Source: Candidatus Gastranaerophilales bacterium
GTDB taxonomy: Bacteria; Cyanobacteriota; Vampirovibrionia; Gastranaerophilales; Gastranaerophilaceae
Length of the DNA stretch: 64,000 nt
Reading direction: 5' to 3'
Assembly: GCA_944325575.1 (NCBI GenBank)
Contig: CALVAR010000008.1
Span: forward strand, 1 to 64,000
Part shown: in pieces, positions 1 to 57,410 of the stretch
How the letters are laid out: each line of letters begins with the position of its first letter
Numbering within the stretch: the stretch's first letter is position 1
Translations under genes and position numbers: made by a program
Notes under the pieces: generated by a model
The model's database searches: none
What the model was told of the DNA's origin: nothing
Seen by the model: the letters and a program-made list of their open reading frames with translations, nothing else

Positions 1-120
1 AAATGGTGGGCGATACTGGACTCGCTTGAGGCGTAGGCGAGCATCACGAGCCGTACGCATCAGGATGCCCAAAGGGTAGAACCAGTGAGGATTTTCCTTC
101 AGAAAATCCGAATCGTGAGA
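1..120 (-). repeat. Truncated 3' end of tRNA-Val with hairpin-rich insert
   Basis: Positions 1-24 are identical to 155-178, the 3' end of the intact tRNA-Val gene including its encoded CCA. Here the tRNA sequence breaks inside the T arm and is replaced by about 96 bases (25-120) that hold an 8-bp stem-loop at 89-109 and end in a GGACTC-like junction. It is read as a 3'-half tRNA copy with an insertion. The left limit may lie outside the window. It cannot make a functional tRNA. Confidence 0.75.
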
Positions 121-130
121 GTCCATAATA

Positions 131-154
131 AAAAGACACCCGAAGGTGTCTTTT
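131..154 (-). terminator. Intrinsic terminator after tRNA-Val
   Basis: A perfect 10-bp stem (AAAAGACACC) with a CGAA/TTCG tetraloop lies immediately downstream of the tRNA-Val 3' end on the minus strand and is followed by T residues. Because of its symmetric A/T flanks it could work in both directions. Confidence 0.8.
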
Positions 155-157
155 AAA

Positions 158-233
158 TGGTGGGCGATACTGGACTCGAACCAGCGACCCCCACAATGTC
201 AATGTGATGCGCTACCAACTGCGCCAACCGCCC
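158..233 (-). tRNA. tRNA-Val (GAC)
   Basis: The minus strand folds as a full cloverleaf. The acceptor stem is GGGCGGT/ATCGCCC with one G-T pair, the D arm is GCGC-AGTTGGTA-GCGC, the anticodon loop is TTGACAT (anticodon GAC), and the T arm contains GGTTCGAGTCC. The discriminator is A, and CCA is encoded at 158-160. It is the only complete copy among several partial Val copies on either side. Confidence 0.95.
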
Positions 234-419
234 ATTCATTATTAAATTGTCAAAATGTGATGCTACCTCTCGTAAAACCTGCCACCGGCAGCTTTTACTC
301 GGCAGAGTCAACTGCGCCAACCGCCCATTCATTATTAAATTGTCAAAATGTGATGCTACCTCTCGTAAAACCTGCCACCGGCAGCTTTTACTCGGCAGAG
401 TCAACTGCGCCAACCGCCC
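234..419 (-). repeat. Perfect 93-bp tandem duplication of insert-carrying tRNA-Val 5' halves
   Basis: Positions 234-326 and 327-419 are identical. On the minus strand each unit begins with the first 18 bases of tRNA-Val (309-326 in the first unit), then breaks in the D loop. The break holds an ACTCTGCCGAG...CGAGAGG segment enclosing a GTAAAAGCTGCC/GGCAGGTTTTAC stem-loop. The unit then resumes with GTAGC and a degraded stretch that never completes the anticodon arm. The units read as 5' tRNA fossils upstream of the intact gene. Confidence 0.85.
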
Positions 420-497
420 ATTTTTTAGATTTTTAACGGATGCGCTACCCCTCTCACAACGATACTCAATCGTTGCTCGGCAGAGTGCCAACCGCCC
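420..497 (-). repeat. Third tRNA-Val 5'-half copy with a different hairpin insert
   Basis: GGGCGGTTGGC (487-497, minus strand) repeats the tRNA-Val 5' end, then an ACTCTGCCGAG...GAGAGG frame follows. Here it encloses the stem CAACGAT/ATCGTTG, a different inner hairpin from the neighbouring 93-bp units, before GGTAGCGCATC resumes the D-arm sequence. The outer frame is conserved while the inner stem is exchanged. Confidence 0.75.
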
Positions 498-506
498 ATT
501 TTAAAT

Positions 507-534
507 AAAAAGACCTAATTCAGAGGTCTTTTTT
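507..534 (-). terminator. Intrinsic terminator after tRNA-Cys
   Basis: The stem AAAAGACCT/AGGTCTTTT with an AATTC loop is followed by a T run on the minus strand and lies just downstream of tRNA-Cys. Confidence 0.75.
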
Positions 535-540
535 ATTAAT

Positions 541-611
541 AGGCGGCACCCAGATTCGAACTGGGGATGAAAGCTTTGCAGGCTCCTGCCTTACCACTTG
601 GCCATGCCGCC
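541..611 (-). tRNA. tRNA-Cys (GCA)
   Basis: The acceptor stem GGCGGCA/TGCCGCC is fully paired. The anticodon loop CTGCAAA gives anticodon GCA, the T arm contains CCAGTTCGAATCTGG, and the discriminator is T (U73), as expected for Cys. CCA is not encoded. The length is 71 bases. It is the only tRNA in the cluster without visible half-copies around it. Confidence 0.93.
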
Positions 612-643
612 ATTACTTTATTGTATTTCCAACAATCCCGAAG

Positions 644-817
644 TTATATTCAATGTAGCGTAATAGAGAGGACTCGCACGACATTCAAGAAATCTTTGAT
701 TTCGTAGAATGACGGGTGCTGGCGATTTGCGAAGCAAATCGAACACGTAAACCGTAGTTCTTGCAAACTTTGTTTGCTTAGAAATACGTGGTAAGAGTCT
801 GTGTCTTTATTCGCTTT
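644..817 (-). repeat. tRNA-Gly 3'-half fossil with nested hairpin insert
   Basis: Positions 644-679 resemble 818-852, the 3' end and downstream flank of the real tRNA-Gly, with scattered mismatches; TTCAATG, AGCG and GGACTCG are shared. Between the fossil and the true gene lie three stem-loops: GAAATC/GATTTC near 691-703 inside a CATTC/GAATG outer stem, CGATTTGC/GCAAATCG near 725-741, and GCAAAC/GTTTGC near 758-778. No open reading frame of note is present. Confidence 0.6.
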
Positions 818-831
818 TTAATGTTCAATGG

Positions 832-903
832 AGCGGAAGACGGGACTCGAACCCGCAGCAGCCTGCTTGGAAGGCAGGTACTCTACCATTGAGTTACTTC
901 CGC
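832..903 (-). tRNA. tRNA-Gly (TCC)
   Basis: The minus strand gives acceptor stem GCGGAAG/CTTCCGC, anticodon stem CCTGC/GCAGG with loop CTTCCAA (anticodon TCC), and T arm GCGGGTTCGAGTCCCG (one G-G mismatch at an end is not needed for pairing). The discriminator is T and CCA is not encoded. Confidence 0.93.
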
Positions 904-1001
904 ATAGATTTTTGTATTGCGTCCCTGCCTTCCTTTTGTCCGGCAGGTAGTAATCTTAACTTCGAGGGCGTTGCCCTCTTGGCATTGAGTTACTTACTCG
1001 C
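904..1001 (-). repeat. tRNA-Gly 5'-half fossil with hairpin inserts
   Basis: GTAACTCAATG (983-993, minus) copies the 5' part of tRNA-Gly up to the D loop, preceded by a divergent acceptor strand (994-1001). Then the stem GAGGGC/GCCCTC (964-978) interrupts the D loop. A second stem, CCTGCC...GGCAGG (924-947), follows and echoes the tRNA anticodon stem. It lies directly upstream of the intact tRNA-Gly. Confidence 0.6.
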
Positions 1002-1023
1002 ACATACAAATATCCTTTAAAAT

Positions 1024-1097
1024 TCGGGATGACACGATTCGAACGTGCGACCCCTTCGTCCCAAGCGAAGTGCGCTACCAAGCTGCGCCACATCCCG
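1024..1097 (-). tRNA. tRNA-Pro (TGG)
   Basis: The acceptor stem is CGGGATG/CATCCCG, the anticodon stem is CTTCG/CGAAG with loop CTTGGGA (anticodon TGG), and the T arm is GCACGTTCGAATCGTGT. The discriminator is A and CCA is not encoded. It starts with C, as is common for bacterial tRNA-Pro. Two 5'-half copies lie upstream. Confidence 0.94.
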
Positions 1098-1194
1098 ATT
1101 TTATTGTGGAATTTGACGCGCACTTCGTGCTACCTCTCCTCGAAATGACATTTAGTCATTTCTCGTCGGCAGAGTCAAGCTGCGCCACATCCCG
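1098..1194 (-). repeat. tRNA-Pro 5'-half copy with D-loop hairpin insert
   Basis: The first 19 bases of tRNA-Pro recur at 1176-1194 (minus). The D loop is then broken by ACTCTGCCGA...GGAGAGG, enclosing the stem GAGAAATGAC/GTCATTTC, before GTAGC resumes and the copy degenerates. The outer frame is the same as in the tRNA-Val copies although the tRNA and the inner stem differ. Confidence 0.75.
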
Positions 1195-1333
1195 ATTTTT
1201 ATATAATAAATTAGTATTTCAGGCGTAGCTTGGTTTGAATTTTTATACTGCCCACAGAAGCTTCTCTTCTGACTTAGCATATCTCCATTGTAACGATACT
1301 CAATCGTTATAACGGAGTCCTTGCCACATACCG
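1195..1333 (-). repeat. Degraded second tRNA-Pro 5'-half copy
   Basis: CGGTATGTGGCAA (1321-1333, minus) matches the tRNA-Pro 5' end with one change. A GACTCCGTT...AATGGAG palindrome around 1280-1320 follows, and its inner stem AACGAT/ATCGTT is the one also seen at 450-475. The rest (1195-1280) shows no gene. It is a more decayed member of the same series. Confidence 0.5.
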
Positions 1334-1445
1334 AATATTAATCTATATTGTGGAATCTACATATTAAGTTTTAAATGTTCGATACAAACGTACTTTCGAG
1401 TTTATCAACAACAAATATTTCAGTCAAGAAATAAGATTTTATTTC

Positions 1446-1847
1446 TTACATTTTTCTGGTAACTTTTATCAAATGCCAGCCGTATCTTGTCTTGACAGGA
1501 TCTGATACACCTCCTATGGGTGTAGAAAATGCAGCATTTTCAAATTCCGGTACCATTTGGCCTCTGACAAAGTAGCCTAAATCCCCGCCCTTTTCTTTTG
1601 AGGGACATTTAGAATATTTTTTTGCCAGTTCTTCAAAACTTTCACCTTCTGTAACTCTTGATTTTATAGCCCATGCCTGCTCTTCTGTATCTACAAGAAT
1701 ATGCTCTGCACGAACTGTTTTATAAACTTTTTCCGTATCATCATCAAATGCAGCCTGAGCAGTCTGATTAACATAAGGTATTGCAAATATGCCAAACAAG
1801 GCAAGAAAACAAAAAGAACCTATTAATACATTTTTTAAATTTTTCAT
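1446..1847 (-). CDS. Secreted parvulin-type peptidyl-prolyl isomerase
   Basis: The 133-aa product is probably a periplasmic folding helper that isomerises Xaa-Pro bonds. A signal peptide or anchor is visible (positively charged start, hydrophobic stretch at residues 10-24, AQA-A cleavage-like site near 32). A single parvulin domain follows, with the family signature GGDLGYF, VPEFENAAF, SDPVKT and YGWHLIKV. The usual SurA/PrsA chaperone flanks are absent, so it is a minimal enzyme. It stands alone between the tRNA cluster and manC. Family assignment is firm; the substrate is unknown. Confidence 0.88.
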   Translation of the reverse strand: MKNLKNVLIGSFCFLALFGIFAIPYVNQTAQAAFDDDTEKVYKTVRAEHILVDTEEQAWAIKSRVTEGESFEELAKKYSKCPSKEKGGDLGYFVRGQMVPEFENAAFSTPIGGVSDPVKTRYGWHLIKVTRKM

Positions 1848-1920
1848 ATAATCTCCCGTTTTTTATATTCAAATAATAAATAAAAATTGAATTAAAAACA
1901 ATTAACGTACAAGACTATTT

Positions 1921-3309
1921 TTATACTCTTCCGTATGCATCTTCATATCGGATTATATCATCTTCTGAAATATAGTCACCTTTTTGCACCTCAATGATTC
2001 TTAATTCTTCATTATAAGGATTCTGCAGCGAGTGAATTGCTTTAAGAGGTATATCTATACTCTGGCCTGCTTCAAGATTATGCTTTTGTCCGTCCAAAAT
2101 TACAAGAGCTTTCCCCTCCAAAACTACCCAGTGCTCGGAACGGTGATTGTGGGATTGGATAGATAGCTTTTGTTTTGGTGAAACGCTTATTATTTTTGTA
2201 AGATATCCGCTGCCCTGCGCAAGACATGTATAATATCCCCAGGGTCTGAATACTGTTTTGTGTATTAATCTTGCATCTTTATTTTCTTCCTCAAGACGCT
2301 CATACAGCTTTTTTACATCTTGCGATTTGTCTTTTTTACAAGCCATAACAGCATCTTCTGTTTCTACTAGTATAATATCTTCAAGACCTGATACTGCAAC
2401 AAGCTTTTTGGAACTGTATATTAAAGAATTTTTTAAATCATTTACAATTACGTTGCCCTCTGTGACATTCCCGTCTTTATCTTTTTCTTTCAGTTCGTAT
2501 ACCGACTGCCAAGAGCCGAGATCATTCCAATCTGATTGGAGTACGCACATAACTGCATTGTCCGTTTTTTCCATAACCGCATAATCAAATGATATTTCCG
2601 GCATCTTTTCATAAACACTGTATGGTATACTTAAATTTTCAGTGAAATCTAAATTTTCAATGTTTTTATATATATCGGGTGCATTTGTTTTAAAAGCATC
2701 CTGCAATACGGAAATTTTCCCGGCAAATATGCCGCTGTTCCAATAGTAACAGCCATCTCTCAGATACTGTTGCGCTGTATCATAATCCGGTTTTTCTACA
2801 AATTTTTCAACTTTATAGCAGTTGTTATTTCCTTCGCCTGTTTTTATATATCCATAGCCTGTTTCGGGATAAGAAGGTTTTATGCCGAATGTTACTATAT
2901 TCCCTTTTTCAATTGCAGGAACAGCATTTCTCACCGTATCTTCAAAAGCTTTTATGTCCTGAATCAAATGATCGGACGGCAGTATAATGACAGATTCGTC
3001 TTTATCGGAAATGCTTTTTATATATGCAAGAGCACAGGCAATTGCCGGTGCAGTATTTTTCCCCATAGGTTCCGATAAAACTATTCCGTTATTTTGAATT
3101 TGACGCAATTGGAATTTAACATCATTTGCATGTTTAATATTTGTAATCAAAACATTTTGAGCATTGGCTGTGATGTTTTCCAGTCTTTTACATGTATTTT
3201 GCAGCAAGCTGTATTGTCCGTGGAGAGAAATAAGCTGTTTAGGGTATAAATCTCTGCTCAACGGCCATAATCTGCTGCCAGAACCTCCTGCCAAAATTAT
3301 TGAGTACAT
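1921..3309 (-). CDS. manC: Mannose-1-phosphate guanylyltransferase / mannose-6-phosphate isomerase
   Basis: The 462-aa enzyme makes GDP-mannose from mannose-1-P and GTP. The C-terminal cupin probably adds mannose-6-P isomerase activity. Visible are the nucleotidyltransferase signature GGSGSRLWPLSR at the N terminus, FVEKP and NSGIF in the core, and a type II isomerase cupin from about residue 350 (RPWGYY, SHNHRSEHW). I chose the ATG at 3309 because AAGGAG lies six bases upstream; the ATG at 3330 would lie upstream of that site. It is divergent from hldE, which fits a surface-glycan neighbourhood. Confidence 0.93.
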   Translation of the reverse strand: MYSIILAGGSGSRLWPLSRDLYPKQLISLHGQYSLLQNTCKRLENITANAQNVLITNIKHANDVKFQLRQIQNNGIVLSEPMGKNTAPAIACALAYIKSISDKDESVIILPSDHLIQDIKAFEDTVRNAVPAIEKGNIVTFGIKPSYPETGYGYIKTGEGNNNCYKVEKFVEKPDYDTAQQYLRDGCYYWNSGIFAGKISVLQDAFKTNAPDIYKNIENLDFTENLSIPYSVYEKMPEISFDYAVMEKTDNAVMCVLQSDWNDLGSWQSVYELKEKDKDGNVTEGNVIVNDLKNSLIYSSKKLVAVSGLEDIILVETEDAVMACKKDKSQDVKKLYERLEEENKDARLIHKTVFRPWGYYTCLAQGSGYLTKIISVSPKQKLSIQSHNHRSEHWVVLEGKALVILDGQKHNLEAGQSIDIPLKAIHSLQNPYNEELRIIEVQKGDYISEDDIIRYEDAYGRV

Positions 3310-37363: not shown

Positions 37364-37543
37364 ATGAAAGTAAAAATTAATGATGGCTGCATAGCTTGCG
37401 GTGCTTGCGAATCAGTTTGTGATGCAGTATTTTCTATCGAAGATACAGCTGTAGTTAACGAATCTGCTGTTGCAGGCAATGAAGATTGCGTTAAAGAAGC
37501 TGCTGAATCTTGCCCTGTAGGCGTAATCGAAGTTGAAGAATAA
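37364..37543 (+). CDS. Small single-cluster 4Fe-4S ferredoxin
   Basis: The 59-aa protein has C9-x2-C12-x2-C15 and a late CPVG cysteine (C51), the layout of a one-cluster [4Fe-4S] ferredoxin. C19 and C44 are extra and could form a disulfide, as in such ferredoxins. DAVF replaces the usual PxVF after C19. It should carry single electrons for anaerobic metabolism. It has its own promoter and terminator. Confidence 0.9.
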   Translation: MKVKINDGCIACGACESVCDAVFSIEDTAVVNESAVAGNEDCVKEAAESCPVGVIEVEE

Positions 37544-37562
37544 TAACTAAATTATTCAATAT

Positions 37563-37598
37563 AAAAAATCCTTGGAGTTTTTACTTCAAGGATTTTTT
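37563..37598 (+). terminator. Terminator after ferredoxin gene
   Basis: AAAAAATCCTTGGAG pairs with CTTCAAGGATTTTTT, with a T-rich loop and tail, 20 bases after the stop codon. Confidence 0.88.
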
Positions 37599-37610
37599 GT
37601 TATAAATATA

Positions 37611-37866
37611 ATATGTCTGAGGCGGCCTCGCTTGTAGATGTGTACACGGAGTGCGAGTGACGCCACCAGGTAGGGGCATAACATCAGGCTTCGCCTCAGC
37701 TCAGCCGATGTTGCAGCCAGTCTAGTATTTAGCGACTCTGCCGAAGAAACAATTAAGTATTGTTTCTGAGAGGTAGACCCCATGCACTTGTTGCCTGTGC
37801 TGGATTTGTTGGTAAAAATGTACTTGTTTATTGCACAGGTTCATCAAGTAGTCGGAGTCAGTTGAC
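37611..37866. repeat. Structured non-coding region with nested stems, including a CTCTGCCGA element
   Basis: The 326-base gap between the ferredoxin and nth has no convincing gene. It holds ordered stems: CTCGC/GCGAG, ACATC/GATGT enclosing AGGC-TTCG-CCT (37681-37711), AGAAACAAT/ATTGTTTCT (37745-37767) inside a CTCTGCCGA...GAGAGGTAG frame like the tRNA-linked ones, CCTGTGC/GCACAGG (37794-37839) and TACTTG/CAAGTA (37821-37850). It may be a mobile palindromic element or an RNA. tmRNA and RNase P signatures were not seen. Confidence 0.5.
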
Positions 37867-37869
37867 AAT

Positions 37870-38535
37870 ATGAAATTTATTAATGAGAGTAAAAAGAATA
37901 TAGATAAAATTATAAAAGGTATAAAAGACGCAAATCTTCCTCAGCGTGATTTTGTAAAAATGATGGAAACTTTCCATGATCCTTTTAAAGTTTTAATATG
38001 CTGTATTTTGAGTTTAAGAACAAACGATTTGACCACTTACCCGTGTTCTCTCAGAATGCTCGAACTCGGAACGAAACCGGAAGATTTTTTAAATATTGAT
38101 GTTGAAACTCTTGCAAAAGCTATTTATCCTGTCGGCTTTTATCGGAACAAGGCACAGCAGATTCTTGATATATCAAAAGAACTTGTTGAAAAATATAACG
38201 GTCAGGTTCCAAAATCAATAGACGAACTTGTTAAATTTAAAGGTGTAGGTAGAAAAACAGCAAATCTTGTAATGGCAAAAGGCTTTGATGAGCCGGCAAT
38301 ATGCGTGGATGTGCATGTACACAGAATATCTAACCGCCTCGGGTGGGTAAAAACAAAAACACCAGAAGAAACAGAAATGGAGCTTAGAAAGCTCCTTCCT
38401 GTAAAATATTGGCTTGATATAAATACTATTCTTGTTACTTTCGGACAAAATCTTTGCAAGCCGCAAAAACCAATGTGTAATATCTGTCCGGTAAAACAGT
38501 ATTGCAATTCTTTTAATAATTTAAATGGAAATTAA
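37870..38535 (+). CDS. nth: Endonuclease III
   Basis: The 221-aa DNA glycosylase/AP-lyase removes oxidised pyrimidines. Helix-hairpin-helix ([17 protein letters not shown], catalytic Lys in this segment), catalytic Asp ([14 protein letters not shown]) and the C-terminal 4Fe-4S ligands ([17 protein letters not shown]) are intact. It is convergent with the TPR/NHL gene with a four-base overlap. Confidence 0.96.
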
Positions 38536-57041: not shown

Positions 57042-57410
57042 ATGATTAAAACAAGAAACAGAAAAGAACAAGTAAGAAAAAGACACCAGCGTGTAAGAAC
57101 AAAAATTTCCGGTACTGCTGAATCTCCGAGATTGGCTGTATACAGAAGTACAAAACATATTTACGCTCAGTTAATTGACGACGTAAATAAAGTTACACTT
57201 TGTTCAGCTTCTTCTATTGACAAAGACTTGAGAGAAAAACTCTCTCACGGCGGAAATGTTGAAGCAGCAAAAGTTGTTGGTGAAGCTATTGCTAAAAAGG
57301 CCTTAAAAGCAGGCGTTAAAGAATGCGTTTTCGATAGAGGCGGATTCCTTTATCACGGCAGAGTTTCTGCTTTGGCTGATGCAGCAAGAGAAGCTGGCTT
57401 AGATTTTTAA
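57042..57410 (+). CDS. rplR: Ribosomal protein L18
   Basis: The 122-aa L18 binds 5S rRNA and has RRKERVRKR-like [31 protein letters not shown] and [25 protein letters not shown]. It is the last gene of this operon segment. The usual followers (S5, L30, L15, SecY) are absent, and a strong terminator stands right after. Confidence 0.97.

Follow-up and report, generated by a model that had tools for sequence, protein, structure and literature searches.

The start of the window analyzed here, i.e., the whole stretch of 64,000 nucleotides from contig CALVAR010000008.1 of a Candidatus Gastranaerophilales bacterium, a member of a gut-dwelling group of relatives of the cyanobacteria, raises the question of why intact genes for tRNA-Val, tRNA-Gly and tRNA-Pro should be surrounded by hairpins and by broken copies of themselves. 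tRNA genes are classic integration sites and, to our knowledge, the elements that use them measure kilobases, encode an integrase and in nearly all cases restore the gene at its 3′ end. The first-pass annotation of this region had described partial copies around the three genes, an observation that we confirm (5′ fragments occur upstream of all three and 3′ fragments downstream of Val and Gly), and had considered that no named element shows this layout. In line with the latter statement, Rfam returned the four tRNAs of the cluster as the sole matches at E<=1 in positions 1-3000 and a limited search of the open-access literature revealed no report of an element with such a layout.

Results

Organization of the tRNA cluster

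The cluster comprises the minus-strand genes for Val, Cys, Gly and Pro, for which upstream means higher coordinates (Table 1). Its long spacers are units of about 60-170 bp, gene-free and strongly folded (mean z -3.3), each ending in a truncated copy of the start or the end of its tRNA, with the intact tRNA kept. From the displaced fragment inward, the order is the fragment, an insert of one or two hairpins, often an inverted segment of the unit's own tRNA, a leader or trailer and the intact gene. Units at the 5′ end have a short leader, often TTGA(A/C)AATTTAATA, and those at the 3′ end, located past the terminator of the intact gene, have a terminator and a trailer. The breaks had been placed in the D loop and the T arm, and they do occur there, but 5′ units may also break in the D stem (nt 10-20 overall) and 3′ units at the T/acceptor junction. 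Regarding the 3′-half copies, the Val fragment had been located correctly, while the Gly fragment, given as 644-679, is shorter and decayed.

Table 1. Coordinates of the tRNA genes, displaced fragments, units and dispersed repeat in the window
Feature	Position	Strand	Remarks
Displaced 3′ fragment of tRNA-Val(gac) with 3′ flank	1..24	-	Same letters as 155-178
Val 3′ unit	25..157	-	Structured insert closed by GGACTC/GAGTCC, with own terminator; homologous in several congeners, absent in others
Intact tRNA-Val(gac)	158..233	-	
Val 5′ unit 1, type V2	234..326	-	Leader TTGACAATTTAATA; H1 266-307; displaced 5′ fragment GGGCGGTTGGCGCAGTTG 309-326
Val 5′ unit 2, type V2	327..419	-	H1 359-400; fragment 402-419; 93-bp tandem copy
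Val 5′ unit 3, type V1	420..497	-	H1 450-485; fragment GGGCGGTTGGC 487-497; inside resumes GGTAGCGCATC
tRNA-Cys(gca)	541..611	-	Without unit
Gly 3′ unit	650..826	-	Decayed 3′ fragment (about 650-676), non-H1 multi-hairpin insert, unit trailer
Intact tRNA-Gly(tcc)	829..903	-	
Gly 5′ unit	904..1001	-	Non-H1 family, TTA(A)GATTA linker; own-tRNA inverted segment GGAAGGCAGG; decayed 5′ fragment 983-1001
Intact tRNA-Pro(tgg)	1023..1098	-	
Pro 5′ unit 1	1099..1194	-	H1 1133-1174; inverted segment CGAAGTGCGC; 5′ fragment 1176-1194
Pro 5′ unit 2	1195..1334	-	Older, AAGGACTCC family; decayed 5′ fragment TCGGTATGTGGC 1323-1334
Dispersed intergenic repeat with H1 hairpin	37616..37872	+	H1 37736-37773; not tRNA-linked

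Positions 1-178 are identical to the end of another contig of this genome (C6), and the start of the window is therefore a contig overlap; outward of the Val 3′ fragment, C6 holds a different terminator and then a neighboring gene. Within the Val 5′ array, 216-308 and 309-401 are identical, which is the basis of the tandem copy, and both types V1 and V2 are seen again in congeners. The Val 3′ unit has changed stems in congeners that are still paired, the Gly 3′ unit is better preserved in G005 and G022, and the family of the second Pro unit is also present at Pro(cgg) in G005. The outermost fragments are often the decayed ones, and at single 3′ units (Val, Asp, Lys, Val(tac)) the terminator beyond the displaced fragment differs from that by the intact gene. 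Elsewhere in the window genome, the Val-type 3′ insert occurs as two tandem copies at a contig end (C14:57096 and 57242, spanning 57096-57346), joined to the end of a different sequence, CCCCGGATTGGACTCG, that is probably another tRNA.

In most 5′ units, although not in all of them, the inverted segment matches specifically the tRNA to which the unit belongs. In 5′ units the inverted match averages 8.7 nt to the own tRNA against 5.6 nt to other tRNAs, with copies of 17 nt in Arg(ccg), 16 nt in Asp and 13 nt in Ile, and in the Asp, Arg(ccg) and Leu(caa) units the segment closes the fragment into a stem. For the Val H1 units, the inverted match was no better than chance.

Frequency, polarity and occupied sites

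The three tRNAs of the original description were real cases of a far larger pattern, since 17 of the 37 tRNA genes of the window genome carry at least one unit, with 5′ fragments upstream of 13, 3′ fragments downstream of 11 and both at seven. Across four congeneric genomes with 116 tRNA genes, 36 genes had a 5′ fragment on their upstream side and not one had it on the downstream side (Fisher p about 1e-12). The 3′ fragments lay on the downstream side of 27 genes and never on the upstream side (p about 3e-9), and both kinds of unit were present together at 15 tRNAs, above expectation (odds ratio 4.0, p 0.004). All genomes compared are drafts, from which the copy numbers of arrays were also read. 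In an order relative without the H1 hairpin described below, assembled in three contigs (G035), no 5′ fragment was found among 32 tRNAs, and three tRNA entries, representing two loci, are followed by 3′ fragments. This perfect polarity is presumably the footprint of integration targeted to tRNA genes, the old end being displaced outward and a new end being supplied.

The comparison of occupied and empty sites that had been suggested for related genomes was also carried out. Val(gac) is free of fragments in G004, G005 and G018, and in other congeners it is accompanied by between one and three units, which fall into two types differing in their inner stems; tRNA-Trp is empty in G005 and occupied in G000. 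Moreover, the Pro-Gly-Cys-Val cluster of G004 is compact, with spacers of about 5-17 bp. Whether such empty sites represent gain or loss is a direction that we infer. Polarity in 116 tRNA genes, together with empty and occupied sites and tRNA-specific inverted segments, supports the earlier view of a repeated process acting on tRNA genes that leaves an intact copy, instead of random decay. The accompanying idea that this copy is rebuilt needs to be toned down, as the intact copy is indeed kept, but this is an ordinary consequence of integration displacing one end.

An artefact of assembling short-read MAGs is hardly credible. Contig ends often fall within units and positions 1-178 recur at the end of C6, which would suit such an explanation, but the same units are found in numerous independent assemblies, where they show sequence differences as well as compensatory changes, and 3′ units are also present in the three-contig relative G035. 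In addition, the units are not assembly duplicates because sister species hold occupied and empty versions of one tRNA. The objection of assembly duplication, raised when the region was first annotated, was rejected given the many independent MAGs with different sequences.

The H1 hairpin, other insert families and the match to the D stem

H1, a hairpin of the form ACTCTGCCGA...GAGAGG, is one among several insert families. Its frame (CTCTGCCGA-N5..35-GAGAGG) occurs five times in the window against 0.00 in shuffled sequences, namely at the four H1 hairpins of the Val and Pro 5′ units and at the one of the dispersed repeat, far from any tRNA (Table 1), and 44 times in the window genome against none for a reversed-pattern control. 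The covariation score of H1 was 0.383 compared to 0.111 for shuffled data (0/500 shuffles as high). The outer frame that had been assigned to the different tRNAs in common is shared by the Val 5′ units and the first Pro unit, while the Gly 5′ unit, the second Pro unit and the two 3′ inserts belong to other families. These families, described by eye, include a TTTAGATTA-like linker at GCTC-type tRNAs, GTAGGCGA..GAGCCGTACG in 3′ units and the family starting AAGGACTCC. The ACTCTGCCGA end of H1 adjoins the displaced fragment in both 5′ and 3′ units, and the 3′ units are therefore mirror images of the 5′ units.

The insert family matches the D-stem type of the tRNA. H1 5′ units are confined to tRNAs whose D stem holds GGC or GCGCAG, motifs with which the GCC or CTGC of H1 can pair, and GCTC-type tRNAs bear other inserts. 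In the narrower GGC class of our script were 11/15 H1-bearing tRNAs versus 3/21 tRNAs with other inserts (p=5e-4), and all 15 show GGC or GCGCAG in the printed sequences; H1-bearing tRNAs in GTDB loci have GCGCAG, GGCGAA or GGCTCAG. Site choice appears to depend on base complementarity.

Among the matches listed in the GTDB scan, H1 was present in Gastranaerophilales and in gut, rumen and similar MAGs only, two isolated matches in Planctomyces and Thermaerobacter being of the kind expected by chance. The listed copies near a tRNA had it downstream on the same strand in 61 of 69 cases, a proportion obtained with a search pattern that favors 5′ units. A phage, virus or plasmid origin was rejected, as H1 had no match in INPHARED phages, PLSDB plasmids and IMG/VR.

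H1 is not exclusive to tRNAs. In the window genome, 14 of the 35 distinct H1 contexts (about 40%) lie within the dispersed repeat without a tRNA nearby, and the possibility, foreseen at the outset, of finding the frame with no link to tRNA genes is thus half borne out; the tRNA pattern itself stands. The repeat is modular, measures about 250-350 bp, begins GTCTGAGGCGGCCTCGC and finishes GTCAGTTGACAATATGAAAT, and Rfam gave nothing above the gathering score for 37500-38000. In G012 (L169, 1080-2200), a gene for a REP-associated tyrosine transposase (RAYT) lies between two copies of this repeat, near tRNA-Arg(cct).

Inverted copies specific to the own tRNA in many units and the existence of perfect tandem copies would also be expected from replication template switching at the tRNA cloverleaf, in which synthesis that has stalled folds back and thereby gives the inverted segments, copies a hairpin close by and resumes within the leader or trailer, so that one gene end is duplicated with no dedicated element involved. 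We regard this as improbable, considering that the same insert families occur at many tRNAs and at both ends with fixed polarity and covarying stems, that the family tracks the D-stem type, and that unit leaders and terminators are often unlike the outer ones; besides, H1 is found in one order only among the matches listed, whereas cloverleaves are universal. Plain D-loop insertion with a target-site duplication of the leader and 5′ half is likewise made less likely by the frequent differences between the inner and the outer leaders or terminators.

The strong folds, the covariation and the complementarity of segments to the D or T arm could also suggest regulatory RNAs, i.e., units transcribed as structured leaders or trailers that would control the maturation of the tRNA by pairing with it through their antisense segments. 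This is very improbable, since the same tRNA lacks units in sister species and the 3′ units are reverse complements of the 5′ units located past the terminator of the intact gene, so that the conserved fold would there fall on the antisense strand. RNA-templated duplication is disfavored because the 3′ units mirror the 5′ units and sit past the terminator.

Recombinases and RAYT genes

Only two tyrosine recombinases, both XerC/XerD-like, were identified in the window genome, and no recombinase or integrase was found inside ordinary units, which counts against an insertion. The islands bearing an integrase beside tRNA-Phe and tRNA-Met (G012, G016) also weigh against it, as their integrase side is without unit anatomy; on this basis, the proposal that the units are the ends of conventional integrase islands was rejected. 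In G012 (L325), a conventional integrase gene lies directly downstream of a tRNA-Phe whose upstream side bears 5′ units.

RAYTs of the NF047646 equivalog (140 and 122 bits) are present in the window genome, where the two genes, L166 (C9) and L165 (C7), have two different flanking palindromes, GTAGGGTGCAATTTATTGCACC and GTAGGTTGGGCATACTTGCCCAAC. Under a REP/RAYT-type single-strand transposition, a Y1 HUH transposase, here the RAYT, would insert hairpin DNA at the tips of hairpins, among them the D and T loops that a tRNA gene exposes when either of its strands folds into a single-stranded cloverleaf, and the units would be its non-autonomous cargo. The mirror symmetry suits an agent able to recognize the cloverleaf on whichever strand it folds. 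RAYT-like loci were within about 1.5 kb of a tRNA in 11/20 cases in the family of the window genome (eight different tRNAs) compared to 0/7 in other families, a count from our tables whose 20 loci are not independent events because related genomes share some of them. Additionally, in G001 (L170, 1200-1960) a REP-RAYT-REP block occupies the loop of the H1 hairpin of a tRNA-Phe 3′ unit, adjoined by an intact sibling H1, and in G000 a RAYT is found within the Arg(ccg) unit array.

Nonetheless, we consider this explanation unlikely. The distribution of RAYTs is patchy, as many unit-bearing genomes lack them or retain only a fragment (G005, G014, G021, G022) and several relatives within the order that have no H1 do possess them (G027, G028, G033, G039), and local RAYTs are flanked by their own REPs (GTAG plus a palindrome, GTAGGTTGGGC.. 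or GTAGGGTGCAA..), from which H1 differs. IS200/IS605-like insertion is reported to target the lagging-strand template (PMC6006769), a preference at odds with the occurrence of 5′ and 3′ units on one tRNA. RAYTs were not upheld as a necessary partner, being missing from many unit-bearing genomes, and this absence together with the co-occurrence of 5′ and 3′ units prevents us from naming them as the agent.

Discussion

Beside the observed polarity, mirror symmetry, occupied and empty sites, folding, covariation and match of insert family to D-stem type, we favor the reading that these are miniature, non-autonomous, gene-restoring insertion units that target tRNA genes and are mobilized in trans by a putative enzyme, with a probability of roughly 0.55. 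This reading is preferred because the regenerated gene, the displaced end, the unit's own flank and the arrays with decayed outer fragments fit integration into tDNA. The units would move as recombining DNA with the recombinase acting in trans, and the order of events that we infer would begin with entry into the D arm (5′ units) or T arm (3′ units). The unit would bring its own flank, either a short leader or a trailer with a terminator, and would supply a new 5′ or 3′ end of the same tRNA, thereby regenerating an intact gene and pushing the old end outward as a fragment; arrays may then grow through repeated insertion at the regenerated gene. In H1, the insert end could rebuild a stem with the target D-stem strand, pairing GGC with GCC or GCAG with CTGC. 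Against an insertion, no free or excised form of a unit was seen in the draft genomes compared, own-tRNA inverted segments in many units are unexpected under simple site-specific integration, and a crossover in the D arm has no counterpart among the tDNA sub-sites listed for Islander (PMC4383910).

A broader interpretation, which we put forward tentatively and with the odds somewhat against it, is that of a novel class of mobile DNA. Gene-free hairpin units would recognize, on either strand, the symmetry of the cloverleaf in tRNA genes, choose their target through pairing with a strand of the D or T stem, carry or copy the matching tRNA end and so insert harmlessly, with several families following one rule.

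If the insertion reading is correct, hundred-base units restoring either end at about half of a genome's tRNA genes would imply that the strategy of tRNA-gene elements also works at the scale of MITEs, and inserts chosen by D-stem sequence would offer natural tests of DNA secondary structure guiding insertion. Tiny site-specific insertions that repair their target gene would represent a novel lifestyle within bacterial genomes. Besides, the units explain why some contigs of Gastranaerophilales genomes break off and why some spurious partial tRNAs occur in them.

Comparison with known systems

The double-hairpin elements and GC clusters of fungal mitochondria are tiny mobile hairpin elements, and the palindromic elements of Rickettsia are small palindromic inserts inside bacterial genes. 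The former are mitochondrial and, in what was a superficial comparison, no description of the restoration of tRNA ends was met; for the latter, we know of no displacement and regeneration of tRNA ends. REPINs and BIMEs are also short, palindromic, non-autonomous and covarying hairpins in many copies, and RAYTs are present here and found beside tRNAs. However, H1 lacks the palindrome tagged with 5′ GTAG that characterizes the local REPs, the units are tied to tRNA fragments with fixed polarity, and there is no clean co-occurrence with RAYTs.

The tDNA islands of tyrosine integrases share with the units the regenerated gene, the fragment displaced to the far end with its orientation unchanged, possible tandem arrays and an element that supplies the replaced end (PMC4383910). 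The 5′ fragment upstream or 3′ fragment downstream, in the same orientation, is the configuration by which the Islander algorithm recognizes integration into tDNA (PMC4383910), and the units show it without an integrase in the element. They differ from such islands in being about 60-170 bp long and without genes, and since Islander rejects candidates below 2 kb (PMC4383910), it is blind to them. Moreover, 5′ and 3′ fragments are about as common among the units (36 versus 27 tRNAs), compared to 159 versus 3760 islands in Islander (PMC4383910). Finally, the break of the 5′ units in the D arm falls outside the three sub-sites listed for Islander, namely the anticodon loop, T loop and T/acceptor junction (PMC4383910), whereas the 3′ units break in the T arm or at that junction.
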